DNA of 64,000 nucleotides from Aquificota bacterium (GCA_018771605.1 CP076324.1:1116001-1180000), one strand, 5' to 3'. Numbered from the stretch's first letter, positions 13,996 through 31,206 are shown. Numbers and translations are program-made. Notes: a model not told the origin generated them from the sequence alone.

Positions 13996-14662
13996 GGAGA
14001 TATTAAAGATAAAGGAAAAGGTCAAGCCTTATGTGGATAAAAGACTATCTGAGTTCAAAGAACTGGGGGAGAAGGGAAAGACCACCTTTGATTTTAGACC
14101 CTTTGCGGACAATGTGTATGAGGCAGACCTTTTTTCCGAGCTTTGCTTTTGCATACTTACAGCCAACTCTTCTGCGTTGATGGGCATAAAACTGCAAAAG
14201 GCCATAGGCATAGAGGGCTTCAAAAGCATGAGCTTGGAAGAGCTTGAAAAGGCCATCTCTTCCGCAGGCCACAGGTTTGCCCGCCAAAGGGCAGAGAGGA
14301 TAGTCAAGGCAAGGGAGAATTTTCATAGAGTTATGGAGCTTTTAAAGAACTCTAAGAATGCCAAGGAGATAAGAGAGCTTTTGAGCGATAGCTGTTCCAA
14401 GTATAAGGTGGAAGGCTTTGGCCTAAAGGAGGCTTCCCATTTTCTCAGAAACATAGGCTATGAGAACCTTGCCATAGTGGACAGGCACGTGTTCCGATAC
14501 CTCAAAGAAAAGGGCCTTTTGCCAGACTATAAGACCATCACAAGGAAGATATACCTTGAGGCGGAAAAAAGGCTTGAAGAGGTATGCGAAAGGCTTGGCA
14601 TGACCCAAGCAGAGCTTGACCTTTATGTTTTTTACTATAAAACGGGAAAAGTGTTGAAGTAA
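13988..14662 (+). CDS. 8-oxoguanine DNA glycosylase/AP lyase, Ogg2 type
   Basis: Bifunctional base-excision repair enzyme of the HhH-GPD superfamily, 224 residues. The helix-hairpin-helix is VEGFGLKEASHFLRNIG with catalytic Lys K147, and the catalytic Asp is D165 in AIVDRHVFR. The compact size and the lack of an N-terminal A domain fit Ogg2, found in thermophilic bacteria and archaea. Start is GTG at 13988, overlapping recN. The stop is immediately followed by degenerate CRISPR-repeat fragments. Confidence 0.87.
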   Translation: MFEEILKIKEKVKPYVDKRLSEFKELGEKGKTTFDFRPFADNVYEADLFSELCFCILTANSSALMGIKLQKAIGIEGFKSMSLEELEKAISSAGHRFARQRAERIVKARENFHRVMELLKNSKNAKEIRELLSDSCSKYKVEGFGLKEASHFLRNIGYENLAIVDRHVFRYLKEKGLLPDYKTITRKIYLEAEKRLEEVCERLGMTQAELDLYVFYYKTGKVLK

Positions 14663-14680
14663 TTTACATCACTTTACATC
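14663..14680. repeat. Degenerate fragments of the CRISPR repeat at the array's distal end
   Basis: Two tandem partial copies of the repeat edge, TTTACATC (14663-14670) and CTTTACATC (14672-14680), abut the first full repeat. They are shorter than a spacer-repeat unit and look like slippage or erosion at the old end of the array, directly after the glycosylase stop. Confidence 0.7.
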
Positions 14681-15306
14681 CTTTACATCCCACATAGTTC
14701 AGATAAAACGGCAAAGAGGTGCAAAGTGTGAGCCTGCAGGTGCCCTACTTTACATCCCACATAGTTCAGATAAAACCGGTCCAAAGCTCATAAAACTTCC
14801 CAGACTTTCCAGCCTTTACATCCCACATAGTTCAGATAAAACGAGAACCAGGGAAGGGCAGAAATCATACTTGCCAAAAACCTTTACATCCCACATAGTT
14901 CAGATAAAACGAGAAAAGGAGGGGGTTCATACCATGCAGAATCCCCTCTTTACATCCCACATAGTTCAGATAAAACCTACAGCCAAGTTCGGCAAATCAA
15001 GCAATGCAGTAAGCTTTACATCCCACATAGTTCAGATAAAACAAACGTGCTGAAAATAGCTCATGAGTATCTCACCACCCTTTACATCCCACATAGTTCA
15101 GATAAAACGATTGATTTAAGCAGAGTTAAGTCCTTGCTTGAACTCTTTACATCCCACATAGTTCAGATAAAACGCAAAACCAAAAGGTAGCCGTGTATTA
15201 TCTCCTGCAAAACTTTACATCCCACATAGTTCAGATAAAACACACCGTCAAGAGGAAAAGATATATATTCTGAGAGCCTTTACATCCCACATAGTTCAGA
15301 TAAAAC
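14681..15306 (-). CRISPR. CRISPR array, 10 repeats of 29 nt, 9 spacers of 36-39 nt
   Basis: Repeats start at 14681, 14748, 14814, 14882, 14948, 15014, 15080, 15145, 15213 and 15278; all appear identical. On the plus strand the repeat begins CTTTACATCCC and ends CAGATAAAAC. Read on the minus strand it begins GTTTTATCTG and ends GGGATGTAAAG, the form of type I-B and related thermophile repeats, so transcription is probably leftward with the leader at the right. Spacers are all different. No cas gene lies in the window, so processing must rely on a locus elsewhere. Confidence 0.95.
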
Positions 15307-15647: not shown

Positions 15648-16253
15648 ATGGGTATAAAAAAGGTAGACAGGAAAGCCTTCCTTAACCTTATAGAGACGGT
15701 GCTATTTGTGGATTTTATAAAGGGCCTTTCGGTCACGCTAAAAAACCTTTTTCGCAGGCCTATCACCACCAACTATCCCATTGAAAAGCTAACGCCACCT
15801 AAGAGGTATAGAGGGGCCCATGGCCATTTTGTTTGGGATGGCACAGAGCCAGACTCTCTAAGGGCCATAGAGAAGTTTATGAGCTATGAGAAGGGTAAGA
15901 GCAGGTGCGTGGCCTGTTATATGTGCCAGACAGCCTGTCCTATGCCAACCCTCTTTAGAATAGAGGCGGTGCAGATGCCCGACGGGTCTAAAAAGGTAGT
16001 TAGGTTTGATATGAACTTGCTTAACTGTCTTTTCTGTGGTCTATGCGTGGATGCTTGTCCTGTGGGCTGTCTTACCATGACAGACCTTTATGAGCTTGCT
16101 GGCTATACAAGAAGGTCTGCGGTGCTTAAAATGGACAAGCTTGAAGAGAACGCCATAGACTGGAAGAAGAGAAGGGGCAATGAGCCCGACCGTATATGGA
16201 TTGACGATGAACATAGAGAAAGACTTTGGGGGAAGATAGAATGGAGTGGATAA
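15648..16253 (+). CDS. nuoI: Complex I subunit NuoI, copy 1
   Basis: Peripheral-arm subunit carrying clusters N6a and N6b that pass electrons towards quinone, 201 residues. Two [4Fe-4S] motifs are complete: CVACYMCQTACP and CLFCGLCVDACP. The N-terminal amphipathic part (ITTNYPIEKLTPPKRYRG) is typical. It heads a six-gene set I-J-K-L-M-N that lacks its own A, B, C, D and H genes. A diverged paralogue is at 25080. It overlaps nuoJ1 by 28 bp. Confidence 0.93.
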   Translation: MGIKKVDRKAFLNLIETVLFVDFIKGLSVTLKNLFRRPITTNYPIEKLTPPKRYRGAHGHFVWDGTEPDSLRAIEKFMSYEKGKSRCVACYMCQTACPMPTLFRIEAVQMPDGSKKVVRFDMNLLNCLFCGLCVDACPVGCLTMTDLYELAGYTRRSAVLKMDKLEENAIDWKKRRGNEPDRIWIDDEHRERLWGKIEWSG

Positions 16254-16729
16254 TCTTTGGCTTTTTGGCCTCTTGGGCTGTTTTGTCCGTGATGGGTGTT
16301 CTATTTTTGAAAAACCCAGTGCATGCCCTTCTATCCTTTGTTAGCCTTATACTGGCGGTGGCTGGCATGTTCCTTCACTTGGGTGCGGAGCTTTTAGCAG
16401 GCTTACAGCTTATAATCTATGCGGTTGCCATAGTGGTCTTTTATGTCTTTGTGATAACCACCATTCCTTGGGAAAAGGTCAAAAGGTTTGAAGGCTTTTA
16501 TAAAAAGGAGTTTTTCTTTGGCTTTCCCATTTTGCTTTTGGCCTTTGGAGGCTTTGCCTATGCCATACTTAAAGGCAACTTTGCCCATGTGGGTGTGGCG
16601 GGCCAAGATAATGTAAAGGAGGTAGGTAAGAGCCTTTTTACCACTTACCTCTTTCCTCTTGAAGTGGCTTCTGTTATACTATTGACAGCCATGATAGGAG
16701 CCATCCTTCTTGGAAGGAAAGAGGAGTGA
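16226..16729 (+). CDS. nuoJ: Complex I subunit NuoJ, copy 1
   Basis: Membrane subunit of 167 residues with five hydrophobic helices. GAELLAGLQLIIYAVAIVVFYVFV is the conserved TM3 segment with the pi-bulge region and a conserved Glu before it. The C-terminal TAMIGAILLGRKE ends like other NuoJ proteins. The start lies inside nuoI1. The gene end is affected by the 19-nt tandem duplication described at 16716. Confidence 0.92.
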   Translation: MGEDRMEWIIFGFLASWAVLSVMGVLFLKNPVHALLSFVSLILAVAGMFLHLGAELLAGLQLIIYAVAIVVFYVFVITTIPWEKVKRFEGFYKKEFFFGFPILLLAFGGFAYAILKGNFAHVGVAGQDNVKEVGKSLFTTYLFPLEVASVILLTAMIGAILLGRKEE

Positions 16730-16750
16730 GCGGAGGAAAGAGGAGTGAGC
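16716..16750 (+). repeat. 19-nt tandem duplication at the nuoJ1/nuoK1 junction
   Basis: The 16-nt string GGAAAGAGGAGTGAGC occurs at 16716 and again at 16735, offset 19 nt. It duplicates the end of nuoJ1 together with the GTG start region of nuoK1, giving two SD-like GGAGG/GAGGAG blocks. Only the second GTG (16745) is followed by the NuoK frame. The junction at nuoJ2/nuoK2 has no such duplication. Confidence 0.85.
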
Positions 16751-17047
16751 ATAGAGAAGGCTTATATCCTTATAAGCATCTTTTTATTCCTTTCGGGCCT
16801 GCTTGGTGTTATCATAAGAAAGAACCTTATAACCCTTCTCATAAGCACGGAGCTTATGCTGAACGGGGTAAACTTGGCACTTGCGAGCGTGGATAAGATG
16901 GTTGGCGGTGTGGAAGGGCAGGTTTTTGCACTGTTTGTATTGGCGGTGGCTGCTTCTGAGGTGGCCGTAGGCCTTGGCCTGATAGTGGCTCTCTTTAGGC
17001 TTAAGGGCTATGAAGGCTCTTCTGAAATTACGCACCTGAGGGAATAG
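16745..17047 (+). CDS. nuoK: Complex I subunit NuoK, copy 1
   Basis: Three-helix membrane subunit of the proton path, 100 residues. The two conserved membrane Glu residues appear in STELMLNGVNLAL and ASEVAVGLGL. The start is GTG at 16745. Its paralogue at 26214 has the same organisation. Confidence 0.93.
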   Translation: MSIEKAYILISIFLFLSGLLGVIIRKNLITLLISTELMLNGVNLALASVDKMVGGVEGQVFALFVLAVAASEVAVGLGLIVALFRLKGYEGSSEITHLRE

Positions 17048-17048
17048 G

Positions 17049-18953
17049 ATGGAAGGGCTACTAATACTACTTTCACCCTTAATAGCCTTTTTGGTAATAG
17101 GCCTATTTGGCTCAAGGCTGGGAGATATGGCATCTGCCATCCTTTGCGTCCTTGGTGGACTTTTCTCCTTTCTTTTCTCCCTCTGGGCCACAGCAAAGGC
17201 ACTCCAAGAACCATTTAGCGTAAAGCTCTATGACTTTTTGCCCCTTGGCAATTACACACTGTCTTTGGGACTCTACTTTGACCCCCTTTCCTCTATTACC
17301 GCCTCTGTAGTGACCTTCGTTGCTACTCTTATCTTCATCTACTCTATTGGTTATATGTCTAACCTCTTTGGCCAGTGGACCTTTAAGTTCTACGCTTACC
17401 TTTCCCTGTTCCTCTTTGCTATGCTTCTGATTGTCTTGTCTGACAACCTTCTTGGCATCTTCTTTGGCTGGGAAGGTGTGGGATTGGCTTCTTACCTTCT
17501 TATAGGCTACTTTCACACACAAAAGAAGGCAGCCAACGCATCTTTGGAAGCCTTTACACTAAACAGAATAGGAGACTGGTTTTTCCTCTTTGGCATAATA
17601 GCAAGCTTTTACCTTTTTGGCACACTAAACATAGTGGAGATATTTAGCAAGCTAAGTGGTGTGGATAAGGCCCTTTTGGGTCTTGCCTGTTTGTTGCTTT
17701 TTGGTGGAGCGGTAGGAAAGTCTGGGCAGTTGCCACTGCACACATGGCTACCAAACGCCATGGCAGGTCCAACGCCAGTGTCAGCCTTGCTACACGCAGC
17801 CACCATGGTAGCGGCAGGAGTCTATATGGTAGCAAGGCTATATCCCATGTTTGAGAGCGCACCACAGAGTTTAAAAGTGGTAGCGGTAATAGGCGGATTA
17901 ACGGCCCTGTTTGCAGCATTGGCAGCAACCTCACACACAGATATAAAGAAGATAATAGCCTTTTCCACCATGAGCCAACTTGGGCTAATGTTTTTGGCCT
18001 TAGGCCTTGGGGACAAGGTAGCGGCCATGTTCCACCTTACCACACACGCCTTTTTCAAAGCCCTACTCTTTTTATCGGCAGGTTCCATAATCCATGCCTT
18101 TCACCACCATGTGCATGACATATACGAGGTAGGCAATTTAAAGAAGTATATGCCCATAACCTACGCAAGCTTTTTAGTAGGAGCCTTAGCATTGGCTGGA
18201 ATATTTCCTCTATCGGGCTTTTGGAGCAAGGACATGATAGTAGCCACGGCCTATGAGGCAAGCTTTGGCTGGGGGCTATTGGCATCGGTAGTAAGCTTAC
18301 TAACAGCCTACTACATATTCAGGGAAGGCTTTGTAATGTTTCATGGCAAAGAGAGGCACCATGGAGAGGAGCCACATGAAAGCCCTGGAGTGATGTTGGT
18401 GCCTATGGTAGTTTTAAGCATAATGGCAGTGGTAGCGGGCTTTTTTGAAGGATGGTATAGCAAAGTTTTTGGAGCGGAGAAAGAATTGCATTTAAACATA
18501 GCGGTGTTGTCAGTGGCCATAGGGCTAACAGGCATAGCCATAGCCTATGTGGTGTATATAAAGGGCATAATAAATCCGGAGAAGGCCTATGAGGCCCTAA
18601 AGCCTTTACATACTACCTTCAAAGAGCAGTTCTTTACAGAAAGGCTTTACCATAAGGTTTTGGCAAAGGGCTATATGTCCCTCTCAAGGGTGCTTTTCTT
18701 GGTGGGGGACAGGTTTATCATAGATGGCTTTCTAAACTTATTAAACTTTCTATACTTTAGGGTGGTTAAGTTCCTTTGGATGAAGCTGGATATAATGCTT
18801 GTGGACCTTTTTATCAATGGTGTGGCAAAGCTTGCCTACTGGACTGGTAAAAAGGTAAGGAATGTACAAACGGGCCTTTTGAATAACTATGTAAGCTTTT
18901 TATTGATTGGTGTGATTTTAATACTTGGCATAATTCTGTACAGTATGAGGTGA
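17049..18953 (+). CDS. nuoL: Complex I antiporter-like subunit NuoL, copy 1
   Basis: Distal proton-pumping subunit with the lateral helix, 634 residues. Key segments: GWEGVGLASYLLIG (conserved Glu), GKSGQLPLHTWLPNAM, HAATMVAAGVYMVAR and SHTDIKKIIAFSTMSQLG (functional Lys). Residues 4-538 are encoded by DNA almost identical to nuoL2, but the C-terminal 95 residues, which form the lateral-helix anchor, are unrelated in sequence and 29 residues longer than in copy 2. Confidence 0.95.
   Translation: MEGLLILLSPLIAFLVIGLFGSRLGDMASAILCVLGGLFSFLFSLWATAKALQEPFSVKLYDFLPLGNYTLSLGLYFDPLSSITASVVTFVATLIFIYSIGYMSNLFGQWTFKFYAYLSLFLFAMLLIVLSDNLLGIFFGWEGVGLASYLLIGYFHTQKKAANASLEAFTLNRIGDWFFLFGIIASFYLFGTLNIVEIFSKLSGVDKALLGLACLLLFGGAVGKSGQLPLHTWLPNAMAGPTPVSALLHAATMVAAGVYMVARLYPMFESAPQSLKVVAVIGGLTALFAALAATSHTDIKKIIAFSTMSQLGLMFLALGLGDKVAAMFHLTTHAFFKALLFLSAGSIIHAFHHHVHDIYEVGNLKKYMPITYASFLVGALALAGIFPLSGFWSKDMIVATAYEASFGWGLLASVVSLLTAYYIFREGFVMFHGKERHHGEEPHESPGVMLVPMVVLSIMAVVAGFFEGWYSKVFGAEKELHLNIAVLSVAIGLTGIAIAYVVYIKGIINPEKAYEALKPLHTTFKEQFFTERLYHKVLAKGYMSLSRVLFLVGDRFIIDGFLNLLNFLYFRVVKFLWMKLDIMLVDLFINGVAKLAYWTGKKVRNVQTGLLNNYVSFLLIGVILILGIILYSMR
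17059..18664 (+). repeat. 1.6-kb near-identical direct repeat, nuoL1 copy
   Basis: Matches 26531-28136 at a constant offset of 9472 bp. By eye I find only about five mismatches in 1606 bp: four in the first 110 bp and one (T/C, Met versus Thr codon) at 18028. The similarity starts at about codon 4 and stops sharply at codon 539, inside the genes. Flanking nuoK and nuoM copies are clearly diverged, so this points to gene conversion rather than a fresh block duplication. Confidence 0.95.
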
Positions 18954-18956
18954 AGC

Positions 18957-20456
18957 ATGGAAGGCTTTCCTTTGATTTCTATAAGTATGATACTGCCTTT
19001 GATAGGCAGTCTTGTAATCCTTATTGCAAGGGAGGCCCTTTCTAGGTGGATAGCTGTAGCCTTTAGCGGTTTTGTTTTTCTCCTTTCTTTGATTTCTTTG
19101 TTCTTCTTTGATTTTTCCAAGGCGCACAAGGTTCAATTTGAGGAAAGGTATAGCCTTATTCCAGAGCTAAACTTAAGCCTTCACCTTGGCTTTGATGGCC
19201 TTTCTTATCTTATGTATATTCTTACCACCCTTACCTCTCTCTCCGCCATACTATGGTCCACAAGGGACCATCAGATAAGCCATAGGTTAAAGGAATACTT
19301 TGTGTGGTTTTTGTTAACAGAGAGCTTCCTGGTGGGTGTTTTTGCCAGCCTTGACCTTATGGTCTTTTATGTCTTTTATGAGCTAACCTTGGTGCCAATG
19401 TTCTTTGTTATAGGTATATGGGGCTACAAGCTAAGGATGTATTCGGCCTATAAGTTCTTCATATATATATTTGTATCCTCCCTCTTTTTGCTTCTTGGTA
19501 TAGTAAGCATTGCGGTCCAGCATTACAAACAGTTTGGTAAGTTTTCCTTCAACTACTTTGACCTTATAAACAACAGGTATAGCCTTGAGTTTGAGGTTTT
19601 TATGTTCCTTTTGTTCCTTATCGCCTTTGCGGTAAAAACGCCCATAGTGCCTTTCCATACATGGCTACCGGACGCCCACGGTGAGGCACCAACGGCTGGT
19701 TCTGTGGTCCTTGCAGCCATACTCCTTAAGATGGGCACCTACGCACTCCTTAGGTTCAACATAGGCCTGTTTCCAGAGGCTTCCGTGTTCCTTATGCCAC
19801 TTATGGTCCTTTGGGGCATATTCTCCATAGTCTTTGCCTCTTGGTTCACCATAAGCCAAAGCAATGTAAAAAGGTTTGTGGCGTACTCTTCCGTTAGCCA
19901 TATGGGCTTTGTAGTAGCTGGTATGTTCCTCCTAAATGCAGAAGGTCTAAGGGCCAGCATTACAGAGATGTTCGCCCATGGCCTTACCTCCTCCGCTCTG
20001 TTTATGATGGCAGGCTTTATATACAACAGGCTTCACAGCTTTAACATGCAGGCCCTAAAAGGTAGTATAAAGTTCATGCCCTTGTTCGCCGTGCTTGTGG
20101 CCATTACAGGCTTTTCCTCCATGGGCCTTCCCGGTGGTTCCTCCTTCTGGGGTAAGTTCCTCACCATAGTGGGTGCAAGAGAATACAGCCTTATACTTGC
20201 CTTCCTTGTAATAGTAGGTGCTTTCTTTAGCGCCGTGTATGTTCTTTACCTTTTGAAAACCCTCTACTTGGATACAAAGGAAGAGAGCAGGCTTGTGCAT
20301 TTTACCGATATAAGGGGTTATAAGCTCCTTGCTTACCTTCTCGTTGTGGTGCCGATGCTTATGGTTGGCTTTCTTCCCTTCCTATTCTTCGCCTTTTATG
20401 ACCCTTACATAGACCACCTTCTAAAAGCCATCATAATAAGGATAGTGGGGGGCTAA
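18957..20456 (+). CDS. nuoM: Complex I antiporter-like subunit NuoM, copy 1
   Basis: Proton-pumping membrane subunit, 499 residues, about 14 helices. The conserved Glu is in YELTLVPMFFVIGIWG and the Lys-containing segments are FAVKTPIVPFHTWLPDAH and SNVKRFVAYSSVSHMG. It differs from NuoM2 throughout, unlike the nuoL copies. It follows nuoL1 by 3 bp. Confidence 0.94.
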   Translation: MEGFPLISISMILPLIGSLVILIAREALSRWIAVAFSGFVFLLSLISLFFFDFSKAHKVQFEERYSLIPELNLSLHLGFDGLSYLMYILTTLTSLSAILWSTRDHQISHRLKEYFVWFLLTESFLVGVFASLDLMVFYVFYELTLVPMFFVIGIWGYKLRMYSAYKFFIYIFVSSLFLLLGIVSIAVQHYKQFGKFSFNYFDLINNRYSLEFEVFMFLLFLIAFAVKTPIVPFHTWLPDAHGEAPTAGSVVLAAILLKMGTYALLRFNIGLFPEASVFLMPLMVLWGIFSIVFASWFTISQSNVKRFVAYSSVSHMGFVVAGMFLLNAEGLRASITEMFAHGLTSSALFMMAGFIYNRLHSFNMQALKGSIKFMPLFAVLVAITGFSSMGLPGGSSFWGKFLTIVGAREYSLILAFLVIVGAFFSAVYVLYLLKTLYLDTKEESRLVHFTDIRGYKLLAYLLVVVPMLMVGFLPFLFFAFYDPYIDHLLKAIIIRIVGG

Positions 20457-20457
20457 G

Positions 20458-21909
20458 ATGGAACAGCTGGTAAGATTGGAATTTCCCAACCTTTGGCTTG
20501 TCCTCCCAGAACTTATAGTACTGATAACGGGCTTTATCCTCTTTAGCTTAGACCTTATATACAAAAGGATAAACCATGCCCTTGCCATAAGCGTAAGCCT
20601 CACAGGCTACATAATAGCTTTGCTCTTTCTTGTCCTAAACCCTAACATGAAGGGAGAAACCTTTTACGGCTTGTATTATAGGGATAGCTTTTCAACTCTG
20701 GTGCAGGTCTTTATGCTCCTCCTTACCATATTCCTCCTTGGCTTTACATACAAGTATTACAAGCACAAAAGGTCCTTATACGGAGAGTTTTATTACATCC
20801 TTAACTTTTCCTTGGTAGGTGGCATGTTCCTTGCCTCTTCCTATAACCTTATAGTGCTTTATGTGGCCCTTGAGGCCGTATCCATATCCTTTTACATCCT
20901 TACGGCCCTTCTTAGGTCCGACTTTAACTCCAAGGAAGGTGCCTTCAAATACCTCATGCTTGGTGGCCTTTCCATAGCCTTGGCCTCTTATGGTGCCGGC
21001 TTTATGTATCTATACTCTGGCTCTTTGGACCTAAGGTATATCCTCACCCATGTAGGTGAAAACCACTACTTTTTAGTTTTGGGCCTTGTGCTTTTCCTTA
21101 TAGGCTTTGCCATAAAGATAGGAGCTGTGCCTTTCCACTTTTGGCTTCCAGATGCCTACCAAGGCGCTCCTACGCCCATAACGGCCTACATGGCTTCCTT
21201 TGGAAAGCTTGCCTTCTTTGCTCCCCTTGTAAGGCTAATGCCCTACGCTCAAGAACACTTCTCCTACGCTTGGATAACCACCGTAGGCATCATATCAGCC
21301 CTCACCATGCTTTATGGAAATCTGACAGCCCTTGTGCAAAAGGATGTAAAGAGGCTTTTGGCTTACTCTTCTATAGCCCATTCTGGATACATAATGGCAG
21401 GTATTGCCATTGCCAAGGTTATCGGCCTAAAGGCTGTGATCTACTTTTTGATAGCCTATGCCCTTATGGGCTTTGGTAGTTTTATGGTGCTTGCCTTGCT
21501 TGAAAGGGTTCCCAACTGGGAAAACAGGCTTGAACAGTTTTCTGGTCTTAGGTTTTCCTCTCCTTGGCTTGCCTTGTCTTTTATGATAATGCTCCTTGCC
21601 CTTCTCGGTGTTCCGCCCACCGTTGGCTTTGTGGGAAAGGCTTTAGTCTTTATGTCCCTTTCCTTTGGAAGCCTTTGGTGGCTTGCCCTTGTGATGATAG
21701 TGGCTACCGGTATATCCACGGGATATTACCTGAGGATAACGGCCCTTATGTTTATGAAGGAGCCTAACGGGGAATTTAGCCTTTCTCTTTCCGGTGCAGA
21801 AAAGTTGCTTATAATGCTTATAACCATAGGCGTTGTCTTGCTCGGTGCTGTGCCTACAATATTATGGAACTTTGTTAGTGCTTCGGCAGAAAACCTTTTT
21901 ATGAGGTAA
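20458..21909 (+). CDS. nuoN: Complex I antiporter-like subunit NuoN, copy 1
   Basis: Proton-pumping membrane subunit next to the quinone-proximal end, 483 residues. Family segments: YVALEAVSISFYILTALLR, IKIGAVPFHFWLPDAYQGAP and QKDVKRLLAYSSIAHSGY. It starts one base after the nuoM1 stop. It closes the first I-N set and is followed after 5 bp by nuoA. Confidence 0.94.
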   Translation: MEQLVRLEFPNLWLVLPELIVLITGFILFSLDLIYKRINHALAISVSLTGYIIALLFLVLNPNMKGETFYGLYYRDSFSTLVQVFMLLLTIFLLGFTYKYYKHKRSLYGEFYYILNFSLVGGMFLASSYNLIVLYVALEAVSISFYILTALLRSDFNSKEGAFKYLMLGGLSIALASYGAGFMYLYSGSLDLRYILTHVGENHYFLVLGLVLFLIGFAIKIGAVPFHFWLPDAYQGAPTPITAYMASFGKLAFFAPLVRLMPYAQEHFSYAWITTVGIISALTMLYGNLTALVQKDVKRLLAYSSIAHSGYIMAGIAIAKVIGLKAVIYFLIAYALMGFGSFMVLALLERVPNWENRLEQFSGLRFSSPWLALSFMIMLLALLGVPPTVGFVGKALVFMSLSFGSLWWLALVMIVATGISTGYYLRITALMFMKEPNGEFSLSLSGAEKLLIMLITIGVVLLGAVPTILWNFVSASAENLFMR

Positions 21910-21914
21910 AAGAT

Positions 21915-22286
21915 ATGGGCTACTTGGCGCTGTTGATATTCTTTGTTATTATGCTTGGCCTTGCGCTGGTCTTTGTGTTTATAAACTATATACTTGGTCC
22001 CAAGTCCCAAGATGCACTTCAGGACTATCCTTATGAATGTGGTGTGCCTTTGTATGATCAATCCGCCCAGGCCACCTTTCATCAAGGTTATTATCTCTTG
22101 GGCCTTTTGCTCCTGCTCTTTGACATAGAAGCTGCCTTTCTCTTTCCTTGGACGGTAGTGTATAGATACCTTGGCGTATTTGGCTTTATTGAGATGTTCC
22201 TATTTATCCTTATACTTACCTACGGGCTTTTATACGCTTGGAGAAGAGGTGCCTTAAACTGGCAGTTTGAAGAAGAAAGTCTATAA
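21915..22286 (+). CDS. nuoA: Complex I subunit NuoA
   Basis: Three-helix membrane subunit near the quinone site, 123 residues. YPYECGVP carries the conserved Cys loop and LLFDIEAAFLFPW the conserved acidic helix. Only one nuoA is in the window. The usual next gene, nuoB, is missing here; nuoCD follows directly. Confidence 0.94.
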   Translation: MGYLALLIFFVIMLGLALVFVFINYILGPKSQDALQDYPYECGVPLYDQSAQATFHQGYYLLGLLLLLFDIEAAFLFPWTVVYRYLGVFGFIEMFLFILILTYGLLYAWRRGALNWQFEEESL

Positions 22287-22298
22287 AGGAGTTGAAAG

Positions 22299-24017
22299 AT
22301 GCCTTGGGCAAAGGGTGAAGACTTTATTGACCTAAAGGAAAGGTTTAGAGAGCTACAGATAGAAGAAAAACCAACCATTACGGCCCTACACATACCAAAA
22401 AGCGACCTTATAGAGCTTCTAAAGGCTTTAAAAGAAGAAAAGGGCTTTAAACTTTTCCTTGACCACTCGGTTATTGACTTTCCAGACAAAAAGCCAAGGT
22501 TCCAGGCCTTTTACATACTCTACAACGTGGATGAAAGGAAAAGAGTAGTAGTAAAAACATGGACCGATGGCGAACTCCCTTCCATAGAAAAGCTCTGGTT
22601 TGCAGGCAAATGGGCCGAAAGGGAATGCTACGATATGTTTGGCATCAAATACGAAGGGCATGAGAACCTTGTAAGGGCCTTTATGTGGGAAACATACCAG
22701 TATTATCCTCTACGGAAGGACTTCCCTCTGGAAGGCTACGCTACCGAATACCTTCCTTCCTTGAACGAGGTCCTTTGGGGCGACAACCTTCAGGGCCTTA
22801 TGAACTACGATAAAATGCACACGCCTGTGCCAACCCTTGAGGACCTTGAGATTACAGAAAAGAAAAGACTAAAAAAGAAGGCACAGATAGTGCTTAATTG
22901 GGGACCCTTGCACCCAGGCACTCACGGAACTATGTGGTTCCTCTTTGACCTTGAAGGGGAAAGGGTCTATCAGTGCGATGTTATATTGGGCCAGCTACAC
23001 AGGGGCGTGGAAAAGCTGGCGGAGAATGAGATGTATAATCAGTTCTTGGTCTACACGGACCGTATGGATTACCTTTCTGCCCTGTGTTCCAATCAGGCAT
23101 GGGTTGTGGCCGTAGAAAGGCTTCTTGGCATAGAGGACCTTGTGCCAGAAAAGGCAAAGTATATAAGGACTATGATGTCCGAGCTTCAAAGGATAAACTC
23201 TCACCTTCTTTGGCTTGGCACCTACGCCCTTGACCTTGGAGCATTGACCATATTCCTATATGCCTTTAAAGAAAGAGAAAAGCTTATGGACATAATAGAG
23301 GGCATAACGGGTGCAAGGCTCACCATATCTTATCCAAGGGTGGGTGGTGTGCGCATGGACCTGCCAGAGGGAGCATTGGAAGTGATAAAGGCCTTTATAA
23401 AGAGATTTCCTAAAGAGCTTAAGGAGTGGGAAACCATACTAAGCAGAAATAGGATTTGGCTAAGGAGAAACATAGGCGTTGGTGTGATAAGTAAAGAGGA
23501 TGTTTATTTCTACGGTCTTACCGGCCCTGTGGCAAGGGGTTCTGGCGTGCCTTATGACCTTAGAAAGTTTGAACCTTACGATGCTTACGGATGGGTGGAG
23601 TTTGATATTCCCGTGGGAGAAAATGGAGATGTTTATGATAGATACCTGGTAAGGCTTGAGGAGATGAGACAAAGCCTTAGGATCATTGAACAGTGTGTGA
23701 ATGTCTTAGAAAGGATGCCTAAGTCAGCGCCCTTCTTTGCCGAATCTCCAGACCCCAAAAAGATAAAGCTTTCCTTGGATGGTATAGGTCTAAAAGTGCC
23801 AGAGGGAGAGATATACTCCTCTGGAGAGAACCCAAGGGGTGAGCTGGGTTTTTACATATACTCCACCGGCGGTATAAAGCCTTACAGGGTAAAGATAAGG
23901 CCCGGCTCCATGTACAATCTATGTATATATCCAAAGCTTATGAAGGATAGGGTTATTGCCGACGCAGTGGCCATTTTGGCAAGCCTTGACCCAGTGGTAG
24001 GAGAAATAGACAGGTAG
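22299..24017 (+). CDS. nuoCD: Complex I fused subunit NuoCD
   Basis: Fusion of NuoC and NuoD, 572 residues. The NuoC part (about 1-185) has AERECYDMFGIKYEGHENL and YPLRKDFPLEGY. The NuoD part starts near LNWGPLHPGTHGTMWF (quinone-site His) and continues with GQLHRGVEKLAE, YTDRMDYLSA (quinone-site Tyr) and ITGARLTISYPRVGGVR. NuoCD fusions are known in other bacteria. The NuoB partner that normally seals the quinone pocket must be encoded outside the window. Confidence 0.93.
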   Translation: MPWAKGEDFIDLKERFRELQIEEKPTITALHIPKSDLIELLKALKEEKGFKLFLDHSVIDFPDKKPRFQAFYILYNVDERKRVVVKTWTDGELPSIEKLWFAGKWAERECYDMFGIKYEGHENLVRAFMWETYQYYPLRKDFPLEGYATEYLPSLNEVLWGDNLQGLMNYDKMHTPVPTLEDLEITEKKRLKKKAQIVLNWGPLHPGTHGTMWFLFDLEGERVYQCDVILGQLHRGVEKLAENEMYNQFLVYTDRMDYLSALCSNQAWVVAVERLLGIEDLVPEKAKYIRTMMSELQRINSHLLWLGTYALDLGALTIFLYAFKEREKLMDIIEGITGARLTISYPRVGGVRMDLPEGALEVIKAFIKRFPKELKEWETILSRNRIWLRRNIGVGVISKEDVYFYGLTGPVARGSGVPYDLRKFEPYDAYGWVEFDIPVGENGDVYDRYLVRLEEMRQSLRIIEQCVNVLERMPKSAPFFAESPDPKKIKLSLDGIGLKVPEGEIYSSGENPRGELGFYIYSTGGIKPYRVKIRPGSMYNLCIYPKLMKDRVIADAVAILASLDPVVGEIDR

Positions 24018-24026
24018 GAGGAAAGG

Positions 24027-25076
24027 ATGGAAGGTGTTTTGGCTTGGCTTGTGATAACCATTATAAAGATACTGGTAATCCTGGGTATAGTGCTTGGCAT
24101 AGGTGCCTACCTTACCCTTGTGGAAAGGAAGGTGGCAGCCCACATTCAAAGAAGACCGGGACCTATGGTAGTAGGATGGCATGGCCTACTACAGCCTTTG
24201 GCAGACGGCCTTAAGCTCCTTACAAAGGAGGACCTATTCCCAAGGTATGGCAACAGGTTTTTGTATAACCTTGCCCTTGTAATGGCCTTAGTACCTGCCA
24301 CCCTTGTTTTTGCAGTAGTCCCCTTTGGCCCAGAGTTTGAAGCTTTTGGTATAAAGATAAAGCCCATACTTACCGACGTAAACGTAGGGCTTCTTCTGGT
24401 TTTTGCCCTTGGTTCCATGGCCGTATTTGCCATAGCCTTGGCTGGCTGGGCCTCCAACTCTAAGTATGCCCTAATAGGCTCTATGAGAAAGGCTGGCATT
24501 ATCATCTCTTATGAAGTGGTCATAACCTTTGCGGTAATGGGACCCATCATATTGGCCGGCACCCTTTCCACCTACGACATAGTTCAAAAGCAGATAGAAC
24601 AAAAGCTTTGGTATATATGGCTTCAGCCCTTGGCCTTTGTGGTTTATATGTTTGCCATGCTGGCGGAAACTGGAAGGGTCCCCTTTGACATACAGGAGGC
24701 CGAGGCAGAGCTGGTGACAGGCTTTACCGTGGAGTATGGTGGTATGAAGTTTGGTCTTTTCCCCCTTGTAGAGTGGTATGTGGAGGTGCTTTCCCTTTCG
24801 GCCATTGCGGTGGTCCTCTTCTTAGGTGGCTGGTCCCCCATAAACATACCCTTTCTTGGCTTTGTAGACCCTCTTTTCTTCCTTGGTCCATTTTCGCCCT
24901 ATGTTTGGTTTGTCTTAAAAGTAAGCCTTCTTTTCCTCTTTGTCCTTTGGCTACACTGGACTCTTCCAAGGTATAGGATTGACCAGATAACCGAAACGGC
25001 ATGGAAGGTAATGCTTCCGCTTACCTTTATTAACTTGGTGCTAACGGCCATAGTGGCACCCCTTGTATGGAGGTAA
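24027..25076 (+). CDS. nuoH: Complex I subunit NuoH
   Basis: Quinone-site membrane subunit linking the arms, 349 residues. VERKVAAHIQRRPGP, LLQPLADGLKLLTKED and ETGRVPFDIQEAEAELVTGF (the Glu-rich E-channel loop) are all present. It has strong SD AGGAGGAAAGG before the ATG. Only one nuoH is present for two sets of J-K-L-M-N genes. Confidence 0.95.
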   Translation: MEGVLAWLVITIIKILVILGIVLGIGAYLTLVERKVAAHIQRRPGPMVVGWHGLLQPLADGLKLLTKEDLFPRYGNRFLYNLALVMALVPATLVFAVVPFGPEFEAFGIKIKPILTDVNVGLLLVFALGSMAVFAIALAGWASNSKYALIGSMRKAGIIISYEVVITFAVMGPIILAGTLSTYDIVQKQIEQKLWYIWLQPLAFVVYMFAMLAETGRVPFDIQEAEAELVTGFTVEYGGMKFGLFPLVEWYVEVLSLSAIAVVLFLGGWSPINIPFLGFVDPLFFLGPFSPYVWFVLKVSLLFLFVLWLHWTLPRYRIDQITETAWKVMLPLTFINLVLTAIVAPLVWR

Positions 25077-25079
25077 AAC

Positions 25080-25703
25080 ATGGTTAAAAAGGTTTTTGAA
25101 AGGCCCTTGAGCTGGTTTGAAAGGATACTCTTCTTGGATTTTATAAAAGGCCTCTCCATAACCATAAGGCATGCCTTCAGAAAAACCATAACCACCCACT
25201 ATCCTTATGAAAAGCTCACGCCACCAAAACGTTTTAGGGGCTTTTTTGGACATAAGGTAGTGGATGGAAGAGAGCCACAGCCCGCCTTTGACGAGTGGGT
25301 GGAGAGGTTTAAGATAAAGGTGGAGCCTGGGAAAAGCAGGTGCGTAGTATGTATGCTTTGCAAAAGGGCATGCCCTGTGCCACAGCTTTTTGAGATAGAG
25401 GGTGAGAAGCTTCCGGATGGGAGAAGAAGGGTCTCAGTCTTTAATATGAACATGATGCTTTGCACCTTTTGCGGTTTTTGCGTAGATGCCTGTCCTGTGG
25501 ACTGCCTTTTCCAGAGTGATATTCATGAGACGGCCAGCTACACAAGGAAGGATGCGGTGCTTGACCTTGAGACCTTAGAAAGGATAGGAAGGGATTGGCA
25601 AAGAAGAAGGGAGGATGAACCAGATAGGATATGGATAGATGACCACCAAAGGCAAAGGCTGTGGTATGAAAACTCCATAAATCTACCGGAGGTAAAAAGG
25701 TGA
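25080..25703 (+). CDS. nuoI: Complex I subunit NuoI, copy 2
   Basis: Second [4Fe-4S] subunit, 207 residues, motifs CVVCMLCKRACP and CTFCGFCVDACP. It shares the ITTHYPYEKLTPPKRFRG and EDEPDRIWIDD segments with copy 1 but is diverged elsewhere and has a longer tail. It belongs to the set that includes A, CD and H. Its end overlaps nuoJ2 by 4 bp. Confidence 0.93.
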   Translation: MVKKVFERPLSWFERILFLDFIKGLSITIRHAFRKTITTHYPYEKLTPPKRFRGFFGHKVVDGREPQPAFDEWVERFKIKVEPGKSRCVVCMLCKRACPVPQLFEIEGEKLPDGRRRVSVFNMNMMLCTFCGFCVDACPVDCLFQSDIHETASYTRKDAVLDLETLERIGRDWQRRREDEPDRIWIDDHQRQRLWYENSINLPEVKR

Positions 25704-26233
25704 TCCAATGGATAGTTTTCTTGCTCTTTTCTGCCTTGGCAATCTTTTCCGCCCTTGGTGTAGTTTTTTTGCCTAATCCTATCTATGTAATACTTGCCCT
25801 TCTTTCCGTTCTCGTTTCTGTGGCTGGTATATTCTTTGTGGCTGGTGCGGAGCTTGTAGGAGCCATCCAGCTACTTATATACGCCGTTGCTGTGGCCGTC
25901 TTTTACGTCTTTGTGCTAACTGCAGTCCCTTGGGAAAAGGCTCTTAAAAAGGACAGCCACTATAGGGTAGCGGGTGTGCTATCCTTTCCTCTTATATTGC
26001 TACTTTACTTGGAGATGGTCCTTGTCTTCCTCATAGGTGTAAGCGTATCTCCCAAAGGTCAATTTAGAGAGCTTATACAAAAGTTTGGCAACACAGAGGT
26101 AGTAGGTGTTATACTGTTTAGTAAGTACTTTTTGGCTTTTGAACTGGTTTCTTTGGTTCTTCTTATTGGTATGATAGGCGCTGTTTTGATAGGAAGGAAG
26201 GAGGCTCAGGTTTATGAAGATGATACCCCTTGA
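25700..26233 (+). CDS. nuoJ: Complex I subunit NuoJ, copy 2
   Basis: Membrane subunit of 177 residues. AGAELVGAIQLLIYAVAVAVFYVFV is the conserved TM3 region and GMIGAVLIGRKEA the C-terminal one. Start is GTG at 25700 (GTGATCCAATGG) overlapping nuoI2; its 3' end overlaps nuoK2 by 20 bp. Confidence 0.92.
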   Translation: MIQWIVFLLFSALAIFSALGVVFLPNPIYVILALLSVLVSVAGIFFVAGAELVGAIQLLIYAVAVAVFYVFVLTAVPWEKALKKDSHYRVAGVLSFPLILLLYLEMVLVFLIGVSVSPKGQFRELIQKFGNTEVVGVILFSKYFLAFELVSLVLLIGMIGAVLIGRKEAQVYEDDTP

Positions 26234-26522
26234 AGCATATTTGATACTTAGCATTGTTCTGTTTGGCCTTGGTGTTTTTGGTATGATAGTGCGCAGGAAT
26301 ATGGTAACAGTGCTTATGAGCATGGAGCTGGCTCTAAATGCGGTAAATATACTTTTCGTAGGTGCAGACGCCCATCTTAGCTTGGTGGATGGCCAGGTCT
26401 TTGCCCTCTTTATTATAGCCCTTGCTGCCGCAGAAGCGGCCGTAGGCCTTGGTATAATAATAGCCATATTTAGGCTAAGGAAGGTAGATTCTACAGATGA
26501 AATAGTGGATATGAGGGGCTAA
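26214..26522 (+). CDS. nuoK: Complex I subunit NuoK, copy 2
   Basis: Three-helix subunit, 102 residues, with the membrane Glu residues in SMELALNAVNILF and AAEAAVGLGIIIAI. The ATG at 26214 lies within nuoJ2; an internal ATG at 26220 is the alternative start. Confidence 0.92.
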   Translation: MKMIPLEAYLILSIVLFGLGVFGMIVRRNMVTVLMSMELALNAVNILFVGADAHLSLVDGQVFALFIIALAAAEAAVGLGIIIAIFRLRKVDSTDEIVDMRG

Positions 26523-26523
26523 G

Positions 26524-28341
26524 ATGGAAATACTAATACTACTTTCACCCTTAATAGCCTTTTTGGTAATAGGCCTGTTTGGCTCAAGGCTGGGAGATAT
26601 GGCATCTGCCATCCTTTGCGTTCTTGGAGGACTCTTCTCCTTTCTTTTCTCCCTCTGGGCCACAGCAAAGGCACTCCAAGAACCATTTAGCGTAAAGCTC
26701 TATGACTTTTTGCCCCTTGGCAATTACACACTGTCTTTGGGACTCTACTTTGACCCCCTTTCCTCTATTACCGCCTCTGTAGTGACCTTCGTTGCTACTC
26801 TTATCTTCATCTACTCTATTGGTTATATGTCTAACCTCTTTGGCCAGTGGACCTTTAAGTTCTACGCTTACCTTTCCCTGTTCCTCTTTGCTATGCTTCT
26901 GATTGTCTTGTCTGACAACCTTCTTGGCATCTTCTTTGGCTGGGAAGGTGTGGGATTGGCTTCTTACCTTCTTATAGGCTACTTTCACACACAAAAGAAG
27001 GCAGCCAACGCATCTTTGGAAGCCTTTACACTAAACAGAATAGGAGACTGGTTTTTCCTCTTTGGCATAATAGCAAGCTTTTACCTTTTTGGCACACTAA
27101 ACATAGTGGAGATATTTAGCAAGCTAAGTGGTGTGGATAAGGCCCTTTTGGGTCTTGCCTGTTTGTTGCTTTTTGGTGGAGCGGTAGGAAAGTCTGGGCA
27201 GTTGCCACTGCACACATGGCTACCAAACGCCATGGCAGGTCCAACGCCAGTGTCAGCCTTGCTACACGCAGCCACCATGGTAGCGGCAGGAGTCTATATG
27301 GTAGCAAGGCTATATCCCATGTTTGAGAGCGCACCACAGAGTTTAAAAGTGGTAGCGGTAATAGGCGGATTAACGGCCCTGTTTGCAGCATTGGCAGCAA
27401 CCTCACACACAGATATAAAGAAGATAATAGCCTTTTCCACCATGAGCCAACTTGGGCTAATGTTTTTGGCCTTAGGCCTTGGGGACAAGGTAGCGGCCAC
27501 GTTCCACCTTACCACACACGCCTTTTTCAAAGCCCTACTCTTTTTATCGGCAGGTTCCATAATCCATGCCTTTCACCACCATGTGCATGACATATACGAG
27601 GTAGGCAATTTAAAGAAGTATATGCCCATAACCTACGCAAGCTTTTTAGTAGGAGCCTTAGCATTGGCTGGAATATTTCCTCTATCGGGCTTTTGGAGCA
27701 AGGACATGATAGTAGCCACGGCCTATGAGGCAAGCTTTGGCTGGGGGCTATTGGCATCGGTAGTAAGCTTACTAACAGCCTACTACATATTCAGGGAAGG
27801 CTTTGTAATGTTTCATGGCAAAGAGAGGCACCATGGAGAGGAGCCACATGAAAGCCCTGGAGTGATGTTGGTGCCTATGGTAGTTTTAAGCATAATGGCA
27901 GTGGTAGCGGGCTTTTTTGAAGGATGGTATAGCAAAGTTTTTGGAGCGGAGAAAGAATTGCATTTAAACATAGCGGTGTTGTCAGTGGCCATAGGGCTAA
28001 CAGGCATAGCCATAGCCTATGTGGTGTATATAAAGGGCATAATAAATCCGGAGAAGGCCTATGAGGCCCTAAAGCCTTTACATACTACCTTCAAAGAGCA
28101 GTTCTTTACAGAAAGGCTTTACCATAAGGTTTTGGCTTACGGCTATCTTTTCTACTCAAGGGTGCTATATGCCACGGCGGAAAGACAGCTTATAGATGGT
28201 TTGGTAAATTCTTCCTATGTGGGCGTGCGTGCCTTGGGTGGTCTTTTAAAGGCCTTGCAGGCAGGCAAGCTTAACCTATATATACTCTTCCTTTCTGTTG
28301 GCTTTTTGGCCCTTTTATTCTTAGTAATCTTTTGGAGGTAA
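26524..28341 (+). CDS. nuoL: Complex I antiporter-like subunit NuoL, copy 2
   Basis: 605 residues. Residues 3-537 are the same as NuoL1 except for one visible change (Thr for Met in KVAATFHLT). After LAYGYLFYSRV the sequence departs completely: the C-terminal helix region is shorter and ends in LALLFLVIFWR. The different lateral-helix ends presumably fit the different NuoM/NuoN partners of the two sets, while the channel part is kept uniform. Confidence 0.95.
   Translation: MEILILLSPLIAFLVIGLFGSRLGDMASAILCVLGGLFSFLFSLWATAKALQEPFSVKLYDFLPLGNYTLSLGLYFDPLSSITASVVTFVATLIFIYSIGYMSNLFGQWTFKFYAYLSLFLFAMLLIVLSDNLLGIFFGWEGVGLASYLLIGYFHTQKKAANASLEAFTLNRIGDWFFLFGIIASFYLFGTLNIVEIFSKLSGVDKALLGLACLLLFGGAVGKSGQLPLHTWLPNAMAGPTPVSALLHAATMVAAGVYMVARLYPMFESAPQSLKVVAVIGGLTALFAALAATSHTDIKKIIAFSTMSQLGLMFLALGLGDKVAATFHLTTHAFFKALLFLSAGSIIHAFHHHVHDIYEVGNLKKYMPITYASFLVGALALAGIFPLSGFWSKDMIVATAYEASFGWGLLASVVSLLTAYYIFREGFVMFHGKERHHGEEPHESPGVMLVPMVVLSIMAVVAGFFEGWYSKVFGAEKELHLNIAVLSVAIGLTGIAIAYVVYIKGIINPEKAYEALKPLHTTFKEQFFTERLYHKVLAYGYLFYSRVLYATAERQLIDGLVNSSYVGVRALGGLLKALQAGKLNLYILFLSVGFLALLFLVIFWR
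26531..28136 (+). repeat. 1.6-kb near-identical direct repeat, nuoL2 copy
   Basis: Partner of 17059-18664. The 9.5 kb between the copies carries nuoM1, N1, A, CD, H, I2, J2 and K2. Recombination between the direct repeats would delete that block and leave one hybrid nuoL. Confidence 0.95.
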
Positions 28342-28344
28342 AGG

Positions 28345-29820
28345 ATGGAAAAGCTTCTTAACCTTGCCATATTTCTTCCATTGCTTGGTGCCATAGCGGT
28401 TGGCATTGTCAGAAAGGAAAAGTTTTCAAAGCTTATCTCCTTGGCTATCTCCTTTGTAGTTTTCCTCATAATGCTATACCTCTTTGTAAACTTTGACTGG
28501 TCTTTAAAAGGTTTCCAGTACATCACAAAGGTAGACTGGATACCTTCCCTCGGTATTTCTTACCATGTGGGTGTGGACGGCATGGCCATATCCCTACTTT
28601 TGATGACCTCTTTGGTCTTTTTGGTTGCCTTTTTATGGTCCTGGAAGATAGAGGACAGGCCAAACCTTTACTTTGCTCTCTTCCTTGCTTTGGAGACTGC
28701 CTGTTTGGGTGTTTTTTCCGCCTTAGACCTATTCCTCTTTTACCTATTTTGGGAAGGTATGCTCATTCCCATGTATTTCATCATAGGCCTTTGGGGCCAT
28801 GATAGAAAGGTCTATGCTGCCAACAAGTTCTTTGTATATACCTTCTTCGGTAGCGTTTTCCTCCTTCTTGGCCTTGCCAGCATAGTGGTCTATGGCTATA
28901 TGATGACCGGCAAAATATCCTTTGACTACCTTTTCCATCTTAGCTTTTCCTATCCTATGCTTTTGCAAACCATTGCCTTCTTCCTCTTTGGCATAGGCTT
29001 TGCGGTAAAGATACCCATGTGGCCAGTGCATACATGGCTTCCTGATGCTCACGTGGAAGCGCCAACGGCCGGCTCTGTAATACTTGCCGCCGTGCTTTTG
29101 AAGATGGGCACCTTTGGCTTTGTGAGGTATTCTTTGCCCCTTTTCCCTGAGGCAAGCAAACAGTTCATACCACTTATCTTCTTCCTTAGCCTTGTAGCCA
29201 TAATTTACACTGCTATGATGGCCATAGCCCAAACGCATATCAAAAGGCTTATAGCCTACTCTTCCATAAGCCACATGGGTGTGGTAACCCTTGGCACCTT
29301 TGCCATGGACCACAACGCTCTAAACGGCGCCATATACATGATGATAGCCCACGGTCTTTCCTCCGCAGCCCTCTTTATGTCCGCCGGCTTTATATACGAC
29401 CGTATACACTCCTACCATATGGATGATCTGGGAGGATTGGCCAGGTATGTACCAAAATTGGCTGTGTTCTTTATGATAGCTGGACTTGCAGGCATAGGCT
29501 TTCCGGGCTTGGCTGGCTTTGTGGCTGAGTTTTTGGTCTTCCTCGGCACCTACAAAAGCTTCCCCATATGGGCCTTCATAGCAGGCTCTGGTGTGGTTCT
29601 GTCCGCCGCCTACTTCCTATACATGTATAAAAGGGTCATGTTTGAAGAGGAAACTCTCTCCGAATACAGGCTTGAAAAGTGGAAGCACCTAAAGGACTTA
29701 GAAGCCCATCACACCCTCTCCTTTGTGCTTATAATAGCCTTAGCATTGCTCATGGGCCTTTATCCTTACCCCTTTGTAAAGATAATAGAGCAAACCACCA
29801 AATACGTGTTGGGAGGCTAA
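28345..29820 (+). CDS. nuoM: Complex I antiporter-like subunit NuoM, copy 2
   Basis: Proton-pumping subunit, 491 residues. Conserved Glu in FWEGMLIPMYFIIGLWG; Lys segments FAVKIPMWPVHTWLPDAH and THIKRLIAYSSISHMG. Only moderately similar to NuoM1 at 18957. It starts 3 bp after nuoL2. Confidence 0.94.
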   Translation: MEKLLNLAIFLPLLGAIAVGIVRKEKFSKLISLAISFVVFLIMLYLFVNFDWSLKGFQYITKVDWIPSLGISYHVGVDGMAISLLLMTSLVFLVAFLWSWKIEDRPNLYFALFLALETACLGVFSALDLFLFYLFWEGMLIPMYFIIGLWGHDRKVYAANKFFVYTFFGSVFLLLGLASIVVYGYMMTGKISFDYLFHLSFSYPMLLQTIAFFLFGIGFAVKIPMWPVHTWLPDAHVEAPTAGSVILAAVLLKMGTFGFVRYSLPLFPEASKQFIPLIFFLSLVAIIYTAMMAIAQTHIKRLIAYSSISHMGVVTLGTFAMDHNALNGAIYMMIAHGLSSAALFMSAGFIYDRIHSYHMDDLGGLARYVPKLAVFFMIAGLAGIGFPGLAGFVAEFLVFLGTYKSFPIWAFIAGSGVVLSAAYFLYMYKRVMFEEETLSEYRLEKWKHLKDLEAHHTLSFVLIIALALLMGLYPYPFVKIIEQTTKYVLGG

Positions 29821-29823
29821 GAA

Positions 29824-31206
29824 GTGAATTGGAATGTCCTATTGCCTGAGCTTGTGCTTGCCTTTGGCATACTCCTTCTTTTTATACTTGACCTCTTTGC
29901 CAGCAAAAAACACTATAGGACTCTTACATACATATCAGCCCTTGTGCCAATAGCCTCTTTGATAAGCCTACTTTTTGTGAATTACCCCTCAAAAACCCTC
30001 TTTGACCTCTTTGAAGTAAACTCTTTAAACCTGCTTGGAAAGGCAGTAATATACTTGCTTACAAGCTTGGCCATCTTTTCCATGCAGGACTATTATGAAA
30101 AGAAGAACTCTGTATACACAGAACTCTCTTACCTTCCCCTTATGCCCACCCTAGGTCTTTCTATCCTCCTTTCTTCCAACAACCTTGTCCTTCTCTTCCT
30201 CTCCCTTGAGCTTGCAAGTATAAGCATGTATGTGCTTGTGTCCCTTCAAAGGGATGAATACTTTTCAAAAGAAGCCGGCTTTAAATACCTTGTAATAGGT
30301 GCGGTAGGCACATCCATGCTTGCCCTTGGCTCTGCCTTTTACTACGCCAGCACCGGTAGCCTCTTTTTCAAAGAATACAGGGACGAAAACAGCCTATTTT
30401 TGCTTGCCATGTTCCTCATACTCTCCGCCTTGGCACTCAAAGCCTCCGCAGTCCCATACCACTTTTGGACACCAGACGCCTACGAGGGTGCCCCCACACC
30501 TATAACAGGATACTTATCCTCCGTGCCAAAGGTGGCCATCTACTTCTTCCTTGTAAAGCTCCTATCTTACTTTTACCATCTTAAGCAATGGCTTATCCTT
30601 GTAGCCCTCCTTTCTCTCCTTTCCATGTTCTACGCCAACTTTGTGGCCTACGCCCAAAGGTCTGTAAAAAGGCTCCTTGTTTACTCCACCATAGCCCATG
30701 CGGGCTACTTCTTCCTTGGACTGGCCACAGCCCAGCCAAACCTTCAAAAGGCTCTGCTATTTTATGTTTCCCTATATGCCTTTGCAAGCCTTGGAAGCTT
30801 TGTCCTTATGGCCTCCCTTGAAAAGAGGGAAGGCTTTAGCCACCATATACTTGACTACAGAGGGCTGTTTAAAGACCACCCAGCCCTTGCCTCCATCTTT
30901 GCCCTATTCCTCTTTGCCTTCATAGGCATTCCACCCATGGCCCTCTTTGTTGGTAAGCTTGGCCTCTTTATGGGTCTTGTAAACTCCATGCTCTTCCCCC
31001 TTGCCCTTGCCTTTGTAGTTGCCAGCATCATATCCGCAGGCTACTACCTTAGAGTTATAGCCTCCATGTTCCTTGAGGAGGGTGAAAAGAAGTATCCACC
31101 TGCCAAGGTCTCCGGTGGAGAGGCCCTTACCCTTATGGTCTGTGCCTTGCTTGTGCTAATCCTGGGTATTTTTCCCCATCTTTTCTATGACCTTATTAGG
31201 TTCTGA
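29824..31206 (+). CDS. nuoN: Complex I antiporter-like subunit NuoN, copy 2
   Basis: Proton-pumping subunit, 460 residues, start GTG at 29824. Segments LFLSLELASISMYVLVSLQR, LKASAVPYHFWTPDAYEGAP and QRSVKRLLVYSTIAHAGY are diagnostic. Its TGA overlaps the ATG of the metallo-beta-lactamase-fold gene, so that gene is probably part of the same transcript. Confidence 0.94.
   Translation: MNWNVLLPELVLAFGILLLFILDLFASKKHYRTLTYISALVPIASLISLLFVNYPSKTLFDLFEVNSLNLLGKAVIYLLTSLAIFSMQDYYEKKNSVYTELSYLPLMPTLGLSILLSSNNLVLLFLSLELASISMYVLVSLQRDEYFSKEAGFKYLVIGAVGTSMLALGSAFYYASTGSLFFKEYRDENSLFLLAMFLILSALALKASAVPYHFWTPDAYEGAPTPITGYLSSVPKVAIYFFLVKLLSYFYHLKQWLILVALLSLLSMFYANFVAYAQRSVKRLLVYSTIAHAGYFFLGLATAQPNLQKALLFYVSLYAFASLGSFVLMASLEKREGFSHHILDYRGLFKDHPALASIFALFLFAFIGIPPMALFVGKLGLFMGLVNSMLFPLALAFVVASIISAGYYLRVIASMFLEEGEKKYPPAKVSGGEALTLMVCALLVLILGIFPHLFYDLIRF

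Follow-up and report, generated by a model that had tools for sequence, protein, structure and literature searches.

Our analysis of the two nuoL genes of a thermophilic Aquificaceae bacterium confirms that they share an almost identical core, and the best explanation as a whole, which we consider highly probable, is gene conversion of this shared NuoL core with the two forms of the lateral helix (HL) spared. The window analyzed is a stretch of 64,000 nucleotides from a genome consisting of one 1.72 Mb contig, and it carries genes of two complex I clusters in the order I1 J1 K1 L1 M1 N1, followed by A2 CD2 H2 I2 J2 K2 L2 M2 N2. The remaining genes of cluster 1 (A1, B1, CD1, and H1) lie at ~250 kb in the genome, ~0.9 Mb from I1-N1. 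Both NuoL proteins were assigned by matches to TIGR01974, in their models a single long helix precedes the final one, and the solved structures nearest to these models are NuoL/ND5 chains. The features of the window are as follows:

15648..17047, plus strand: nuoI1, nuoJ1, and nuoK1 (Pfam), 5' of nuoL1 and not homogenized, with 35-50% of fourfold sites the same as in their paralogues.
17049..18953, plus strand: nuoL1, 634 aa, a long-tailed NuoL above the cut-off of NCBIfam TIGR01974 / NF005141.
17059..18664, plus strand: homogenized tract, copy 1, covering L1 residues 4-539 (TM core and first lateral-helix turns), 1606 bp with 5 differences and sharp edges.
18665..18953, plus strand: L1-specific tail, the rest of the extended HL and TM16, placed in the 'long' class by the tail tree and family survey (model helix 530-607).
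18738..18818, plus strand: 27-residue HL extension, approximately residues 564-590, located by ungapped alignment and lag-27 self-similarity.
18957..20456, plus strand: nuoM1, 499 aa (TIGR01972; M1 clade 100%).
20458..21909, plus strand: nuoN1, 483 aa (TIGR01770).
21915..26522, plus strand: nuoA2, nuoCD2, nuoH2, nuoI2, nuoJ2, and nuoK2 (Pfam), between both nuoL genes and lacking nuoB.
26524..28341, plus strand: nuoL2, 605 aa, a canonical-tailed NuoL above the cut-off of NCBIfam TIGR01974 / NF005141.
26531..28136, plus strand: homogenized tract, copy 2, 1606 bp with 5 differences to copy 1 and sharp edges.
28137..28341, plus strand: L2-specific tail, the rest of the canonical HL and TM16, 'short' class (model helix 527-579).
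28345..29820, plus strand: nuoM2, 491 aa (TIGR01972; M2 clade 100%).
29824..31206, plus strand: nuoN2, 460 aa (TIGR01770).

Directly 5' of nuoI1, a CRISPR array (29-nt repeat CTTTACATCCCACATAGTTCAGATAAAAC, spacing ~66) is present at 14637-15306 of the window, a spot that is occupied by A1-B1-CD1-H1 in relatives such as G018.

Direct comparison of 17059-18664 with 26531-28136 (offset 9472) revealed 5 differences and 0 gaps over 1606 bp, which confirms the original prediction of about 1.6 kb of near-identical DNA with about five differences and edges inside the genes. Dense mismatches extend rightwards from 18665 and leftwards from 17058, so that low homology begins where the tract ends on both sides, and a whole-genome search recovered these two copies and no third copy of the tract. 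The differences are located at copy-1 positions 17105, 17150, 17156, 17162, and 18028. Four of the five are synonymous third-position changes within the first ~110 bp, and the fifth is a missense change (Met327 in L1, Thr in L2). By comparison with the five relatives sampled, all of which have Met at this position in both copies, Met is the ancestral state and the Thr of L2 the derived one.

To the right and left of the tract the paralogues are strongly diverged, as had also been predicted, with protein identities within this genome of 54% for I, 41% for J, 46% for K, 42% for M, and 38% for N. The NuoL core is identical at 258 of its 262 fourfold-degenerate sites, the NuoL tail at 6 of 11, and the neighboring paralogues at 35-50%. 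Taking into account that these sites agree in the tract and not in its neighbors, the near-identity reflects gene conversion at the DNA level, and purifying selection as its sole cause is ruled out by the silent sites.

To place this locus within its family, we compared 14 genomes with both full nuoL copies, including the present one, in which core identity within each genome ranged from 93.4 to 100%. In the core tree the two copies of each genome are sisters in 14/14 pairs (14 label changes), and an AU test rejected L1 as a clade (p 2e-4). In the tail tree the L1 and L2 classes are separate (2 label changes), same-genome pairing of tails being rejected in the four of four genomes tested (AU test, p < 1e-3), and M1 and M2 are each monophyletic with 100% support. 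Since core pairs are sisters while tails and M genes split by class, conversion has acted separately in essentially every sampled lineage. The fourfold sites and the trees thus agree with the earlier proposal that the channel-forming core was converted and the C-terminus left distinct; the proposal that this was a recent event does not hold, as conversion recurs across the family.

It should be noted that nuoL conversion in Aquificales is already known, and is neither recent nor unique to the present genome. Wang & Chen (2018; PMC6053082) describe nuoL in this order as a case of long-lasting recurrent concerted evolution in 6 species, detected in a scan that dealt with full-length concerted evolution and gene balance. 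The features of such evolution were found here as well, with paralogues closer to each other than orthologues and similarity at silent sites. Among the genomes compared, we take G016 to be Aquifex aeolicus, G066 Hydrogenobacter thermophilus, G022 Thermocrinis albus, and G023 a Hydrogenobaculum sp. In G066 the copies lie ~0.5 Mb apart around the chromosome and differ at 1 base in 1620 (99.94%), which shows that adjacency is not required for conversion. Aquifex NuoL2 has been said to branch with Alphaproteobacteria (PMC3879981), a statement at odds with both G016 copies analyzed here and possibly made about another gene.

Near-identical copies would also be expected if nuoL had recently been duplicated, or replaced horizontally, in this lineage alone. 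This is extremely improbable, because all 14 genomes show the pattern, their class-specific tails starting close to a common junction, and every pair is sister in the core tree; the trees rule it out. A collapsed assembly, in which one core was copied to both places, is likewise very improbable, although this repeat does interrupt short-read assemblies. For instance, the single contig of G014 has both ends at nuoL2 and lacks most of that gene (L195:2-400 and the end of L127) because the repeat broke the assembly. The two copies nevertheless carry five real differences, single-contig relatives vary in within-pair identity (93.5-99.9%) with similar edges, and nuoL concerted evolution was found independently in 6 species (PMC6053082). 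The worry about misassembly raised with the original prediction therefore carries little weight, given one contig here and recurrence of the pattern in 13 further genomes, many of which are single contigs.

The tract nearly always ends where HL departs NuoL towards NuoM. Measured from an LYH motif at this point, the 3' edge falls at -1 to +12 aa in 9/14 genomes, at +31/+32 in three, exactly at the insertion point of the long tail, and at -49/-52, ~50 codons earlier, in the other two (G018/G061). The three genomes with the +31/+32 edge are presumably Hydrogenobaculum-like. In 7 draft genomes the contigs break in the repeated core; those carrying either copy begin at one common base, and the two sequences diverge at 0 to +13 aa from LYH. 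In an alignment with E. coli NuoL, the tract end (LYHKVL) would correspond approximately to F549, next to P552. In E. coli, P552 is on the part of the amphipathic helix (HL) that runs from NuoL to NuoM, with L565/N566 nearest to the latter (PMC3274701). The homogenized part would thus be what sits on NuoL's own body, and the spared part the reach over NuoM and NuoN together with the last TM helix.

By sequence comparison the tails form two old classes. Tails of the L1 class, and only these, harbor 27 extra residues inside the helix in an ungapped register, and this segment, which had escaped the original prediction, repeats the one preceding it (lag 27 score 14.4, next best -3.0 among lags 6-39; equalled by 4 of 2000 column shuffles). 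The exact placement of the extension is ambiguous, being an internal repeat (D554..D559/N563 versus D581..D586). The duplicated node reads D-x-x-x-I-D-G-x-x-N and, in the alignment with E. coli NuoL, would match D563-N566, the contact with NuoM. AlphaFold models show an unbroken HL, 78 residues long in L1 (530-607) and 53 in L2 (527-579), at a low pLDDT of ~58-72. In a survey of 64 family genomes, one strong long tail was found in 51, one strong short tail in 49, and both in 41, and none of the 64 had two tails of one class; the genomes without one of the tails are mostly drafts. In outgroup families of this order nuoL is single and short-tailed (L189-L191), so the long tail is the derived one.

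Rearrangements through nuoL were identified in several relatives. In G066, one locus reads I1 J1 K1-L(short)-M2-N2 and the other I2 J2 K2-L(long)-M1-N1-A2-CD2-H2, an arrangement that would arise if the segment between the nuoL repeats was excised, the circle opened between H2 and I2, and reinserted. G016 carries A1 CD1 H1 I1 J1 K1-L(short)-M2-N2 and H2 I2 J2 K2-L(long)-M1-N1-A2, and a contig of G024 carries this permutation with the opening between CD2 and H2. Since the tandem order is retained in Hydrogenobaculum-like genomes, G018/G061, G022/G072/G076, and genomes of the host's own genus, parsimony suggests at least two independent crossover events. In each of them the tail keeps its M and N genes, and the K, J, and I partners change. 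This cohesion is consistent with co-adaptation of tail and M/N genes without proving it, because tail and M genes are adjacent and physical linkage alone predicts the same outcome. The earlier idea that the C-terminal anchors are specific to each membrane arm is therefore right in outline, except that the G066 and G016 crossovers tie the tail to the M/N module and not to the whole arm. In G016, nuoH2 is seemingly split into two overlapping ORFs of 259 and 100 aa (L126:9205-10253).

Conversion and its recurrence, the boundary, both tail classes, the duplication, the linkage of tail to M/N, and the crossover products are thus established by the data. Taken as a whole, the most probable sequence of events starts with two tandem membrane-arm clusters (A1 B1 CD1 H1 I1 J1 K1 L1 M1 N1 and A2 CD2 H2 I2 J2 K2 L2 M2 N2) that predate the split of the Aquificaceae, and whose membrane-arm subunits have all diverged except for the antiporter core of NuoL. 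Homologous recombination between the nuoL repeats, presumably RecA-dependent, keeps converting this core from its first codons to approximately the LYH motif, where HL departs NuoL, and halts there because the downstream sequence belongs to two old, diverged classes. L2 has the canonical HL with M2/N2, and L1 an HL with the in-helix duplication of 27 residues, including the NuoM-contact node, with M1/N1. The NuoL core would in effect be one common part, like NuoB and NuoF, each encoded by a single gene, and would be kept twice only since each copy carries the HL that fits its own M-N module. A mismatched HL is inferred to be harmful, hence selection on the tails, and the length of HL would matter for pump number or geometry.

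It is possible, although we give it distinctly less credence, that the pattern is purely mechanical, an early insertion and drift having left the tails too diverged to convert, with no selection on their identity. The tract does stop at the onset of low homology on both sides, and the edge position varies, the three Hydrogenobaculum-like genomes converting right to the insertion point. Since conversion there runs ~28 codons further, there is no bar to sharing the first HL segment, and retention of the tails needs no selection because diverged sequence and a 27-codon insertion would stall recombination anyway. Selection on the tails, as originally proposed, is plausible. Three observations speak against mechanics alone: each tail class is conserved internally (17 invariant columns and a mean identity of 65% in the long class); tails are kept one each in 41 genomes; and K, J, M, and N presumably began equally similar, yet were not kept homogeneous. 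The first two of these indicate that each tail is under constraint.

The two clusters also appear to draw on common parts. Cluster 2 has no nuoB, as A2 ends at 22286 and CD2 starts at 22299 (12 bp gap), and the sole complex I-type nuoB of the genome is encoded at G000:C1:251698-252024, between A1 and CD1. Only one nuoF was found in the genome. The two complexes must therefore share NuoB and NuoF, or one of them is incomplete. NuoB-sized genes are few in six relatives as well (PF01058 search, by size only).

For 2M-type complex I (Chadwick et al., 2018, cited in PMC9040806 and PMC6606698), an HL insertion of 26 residues has been described and interpreted as making space for an additional pump (PMC9040806, PMC6606698), and a lengthened NuoL is a hallmark of such complexes (PMC6606698). 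By analogy, the long-tailed arm could be a four-pump complex I, with a second NuoM-contact node and M2 from the neighboring cluster as the fourth antiporter. The 27-residue duplication of the contact node resembles that 26-residue insertion, lengthened NuoL proteins mark 2M complexes, the modelled helix measures 78 versus 53 residues, and the genome has one NuoB gene and one NuoF gene for both clusters. We nonetheless regard this possibility as unlikely: there is one M per cluster, the tree shows M1 and M2 to be unrelated to the second M of 2M-like clusters, an extended HL occurs elsewhere with one M per cluster (L043, L080, L082), and the helix models are of low confidence (pLDDT 58-72). A second nuoM was not found in the long-tail cluster, which encodes three pumps, and descent of M1 from the second M of 2M complexes is ruled out by the tree.

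The genome's other antiporter genes, a HyfF-like gene and a split HyfB-like gene beside group 4 hydrogenase-like genes, are unlikely candidates for a fourth pump. The HyfB-like gene is split over two overlapping frames of 202 and 405 aa (L202:4504-6226, G000 ~182 kb), owing to a frameshift or sequencing error. A bolder and quite improbable extension is that two versions of complex I are built from partly common parts (one NuoB, one NuoF, one NuoL core), the version with the duplicated-node HL taking up an extra NuoM from the other cluster and moving more protons per cycle. If true, the added pumping could, e.g., power the reduction of ferredoxin needed in the reductive TCA cycle.

Compared with related systems, the present case is alike in gene, bacterial order, and recurrent two-copy conversion to the nuoL case as given in the available text of Wang & Chen (PMC6053082), to which our analysis adds the stop at HL, the two tail classes, the 27-residue duplication, and the crossovers permuting the operons. 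With tufA/tufB, as described in the same text, it shares a two-copy protein gene held identical by conversion over long times, and it differs in that nuoL is homogenized in part only, with a repeated boundary and distinct remainders. The likeness to 2M complex I lies in a NuoL HL insertion of similar length (~27 residues here, ~26-28 in 2M complexes); unlike in those complexes, the long-tail cluster here lacks a second nuoM, and M1 and M2 arose inside Aquificales. We found no published account of a tract that nearly always stops where HL departs, of two spared tail classes, one with a 27-residue duplication in a three-pump cluster, of 41 genomes with exactly one tail per class, of nuoL crossovers permuting clusters in at least two lineages, or of a single complex I nuoB and a single nuoF in such a genome.

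Concerted evolution bounded by a protein domain is thereby added to the known whole-gene kind: family-wide, one gene is homogenized up to a structural junction and held in two classes beyond it. In addition, the natural crossovers reveal which part of NuoL travels with which neighbor, which bears on the disputed role of HL, and the long-HL complex I of Aquificaceae, lacking the expected extra pump gene, offers a direct test of whether HL length counts pumps. Outside Aquificales, L043, L080, and L082 have an extended HL (tails of 94-99 aa) and a single nuoM in the cluster, a further exception to the expected pairing of a long HL with two nuoM genes. Finally, a Chloroflexota NuoL (L071:1565-3754) has a tail of 123 aa with apparently three contact nodes and two nuoM genes in its cluster, and its HL was perhaps lengthened twice.
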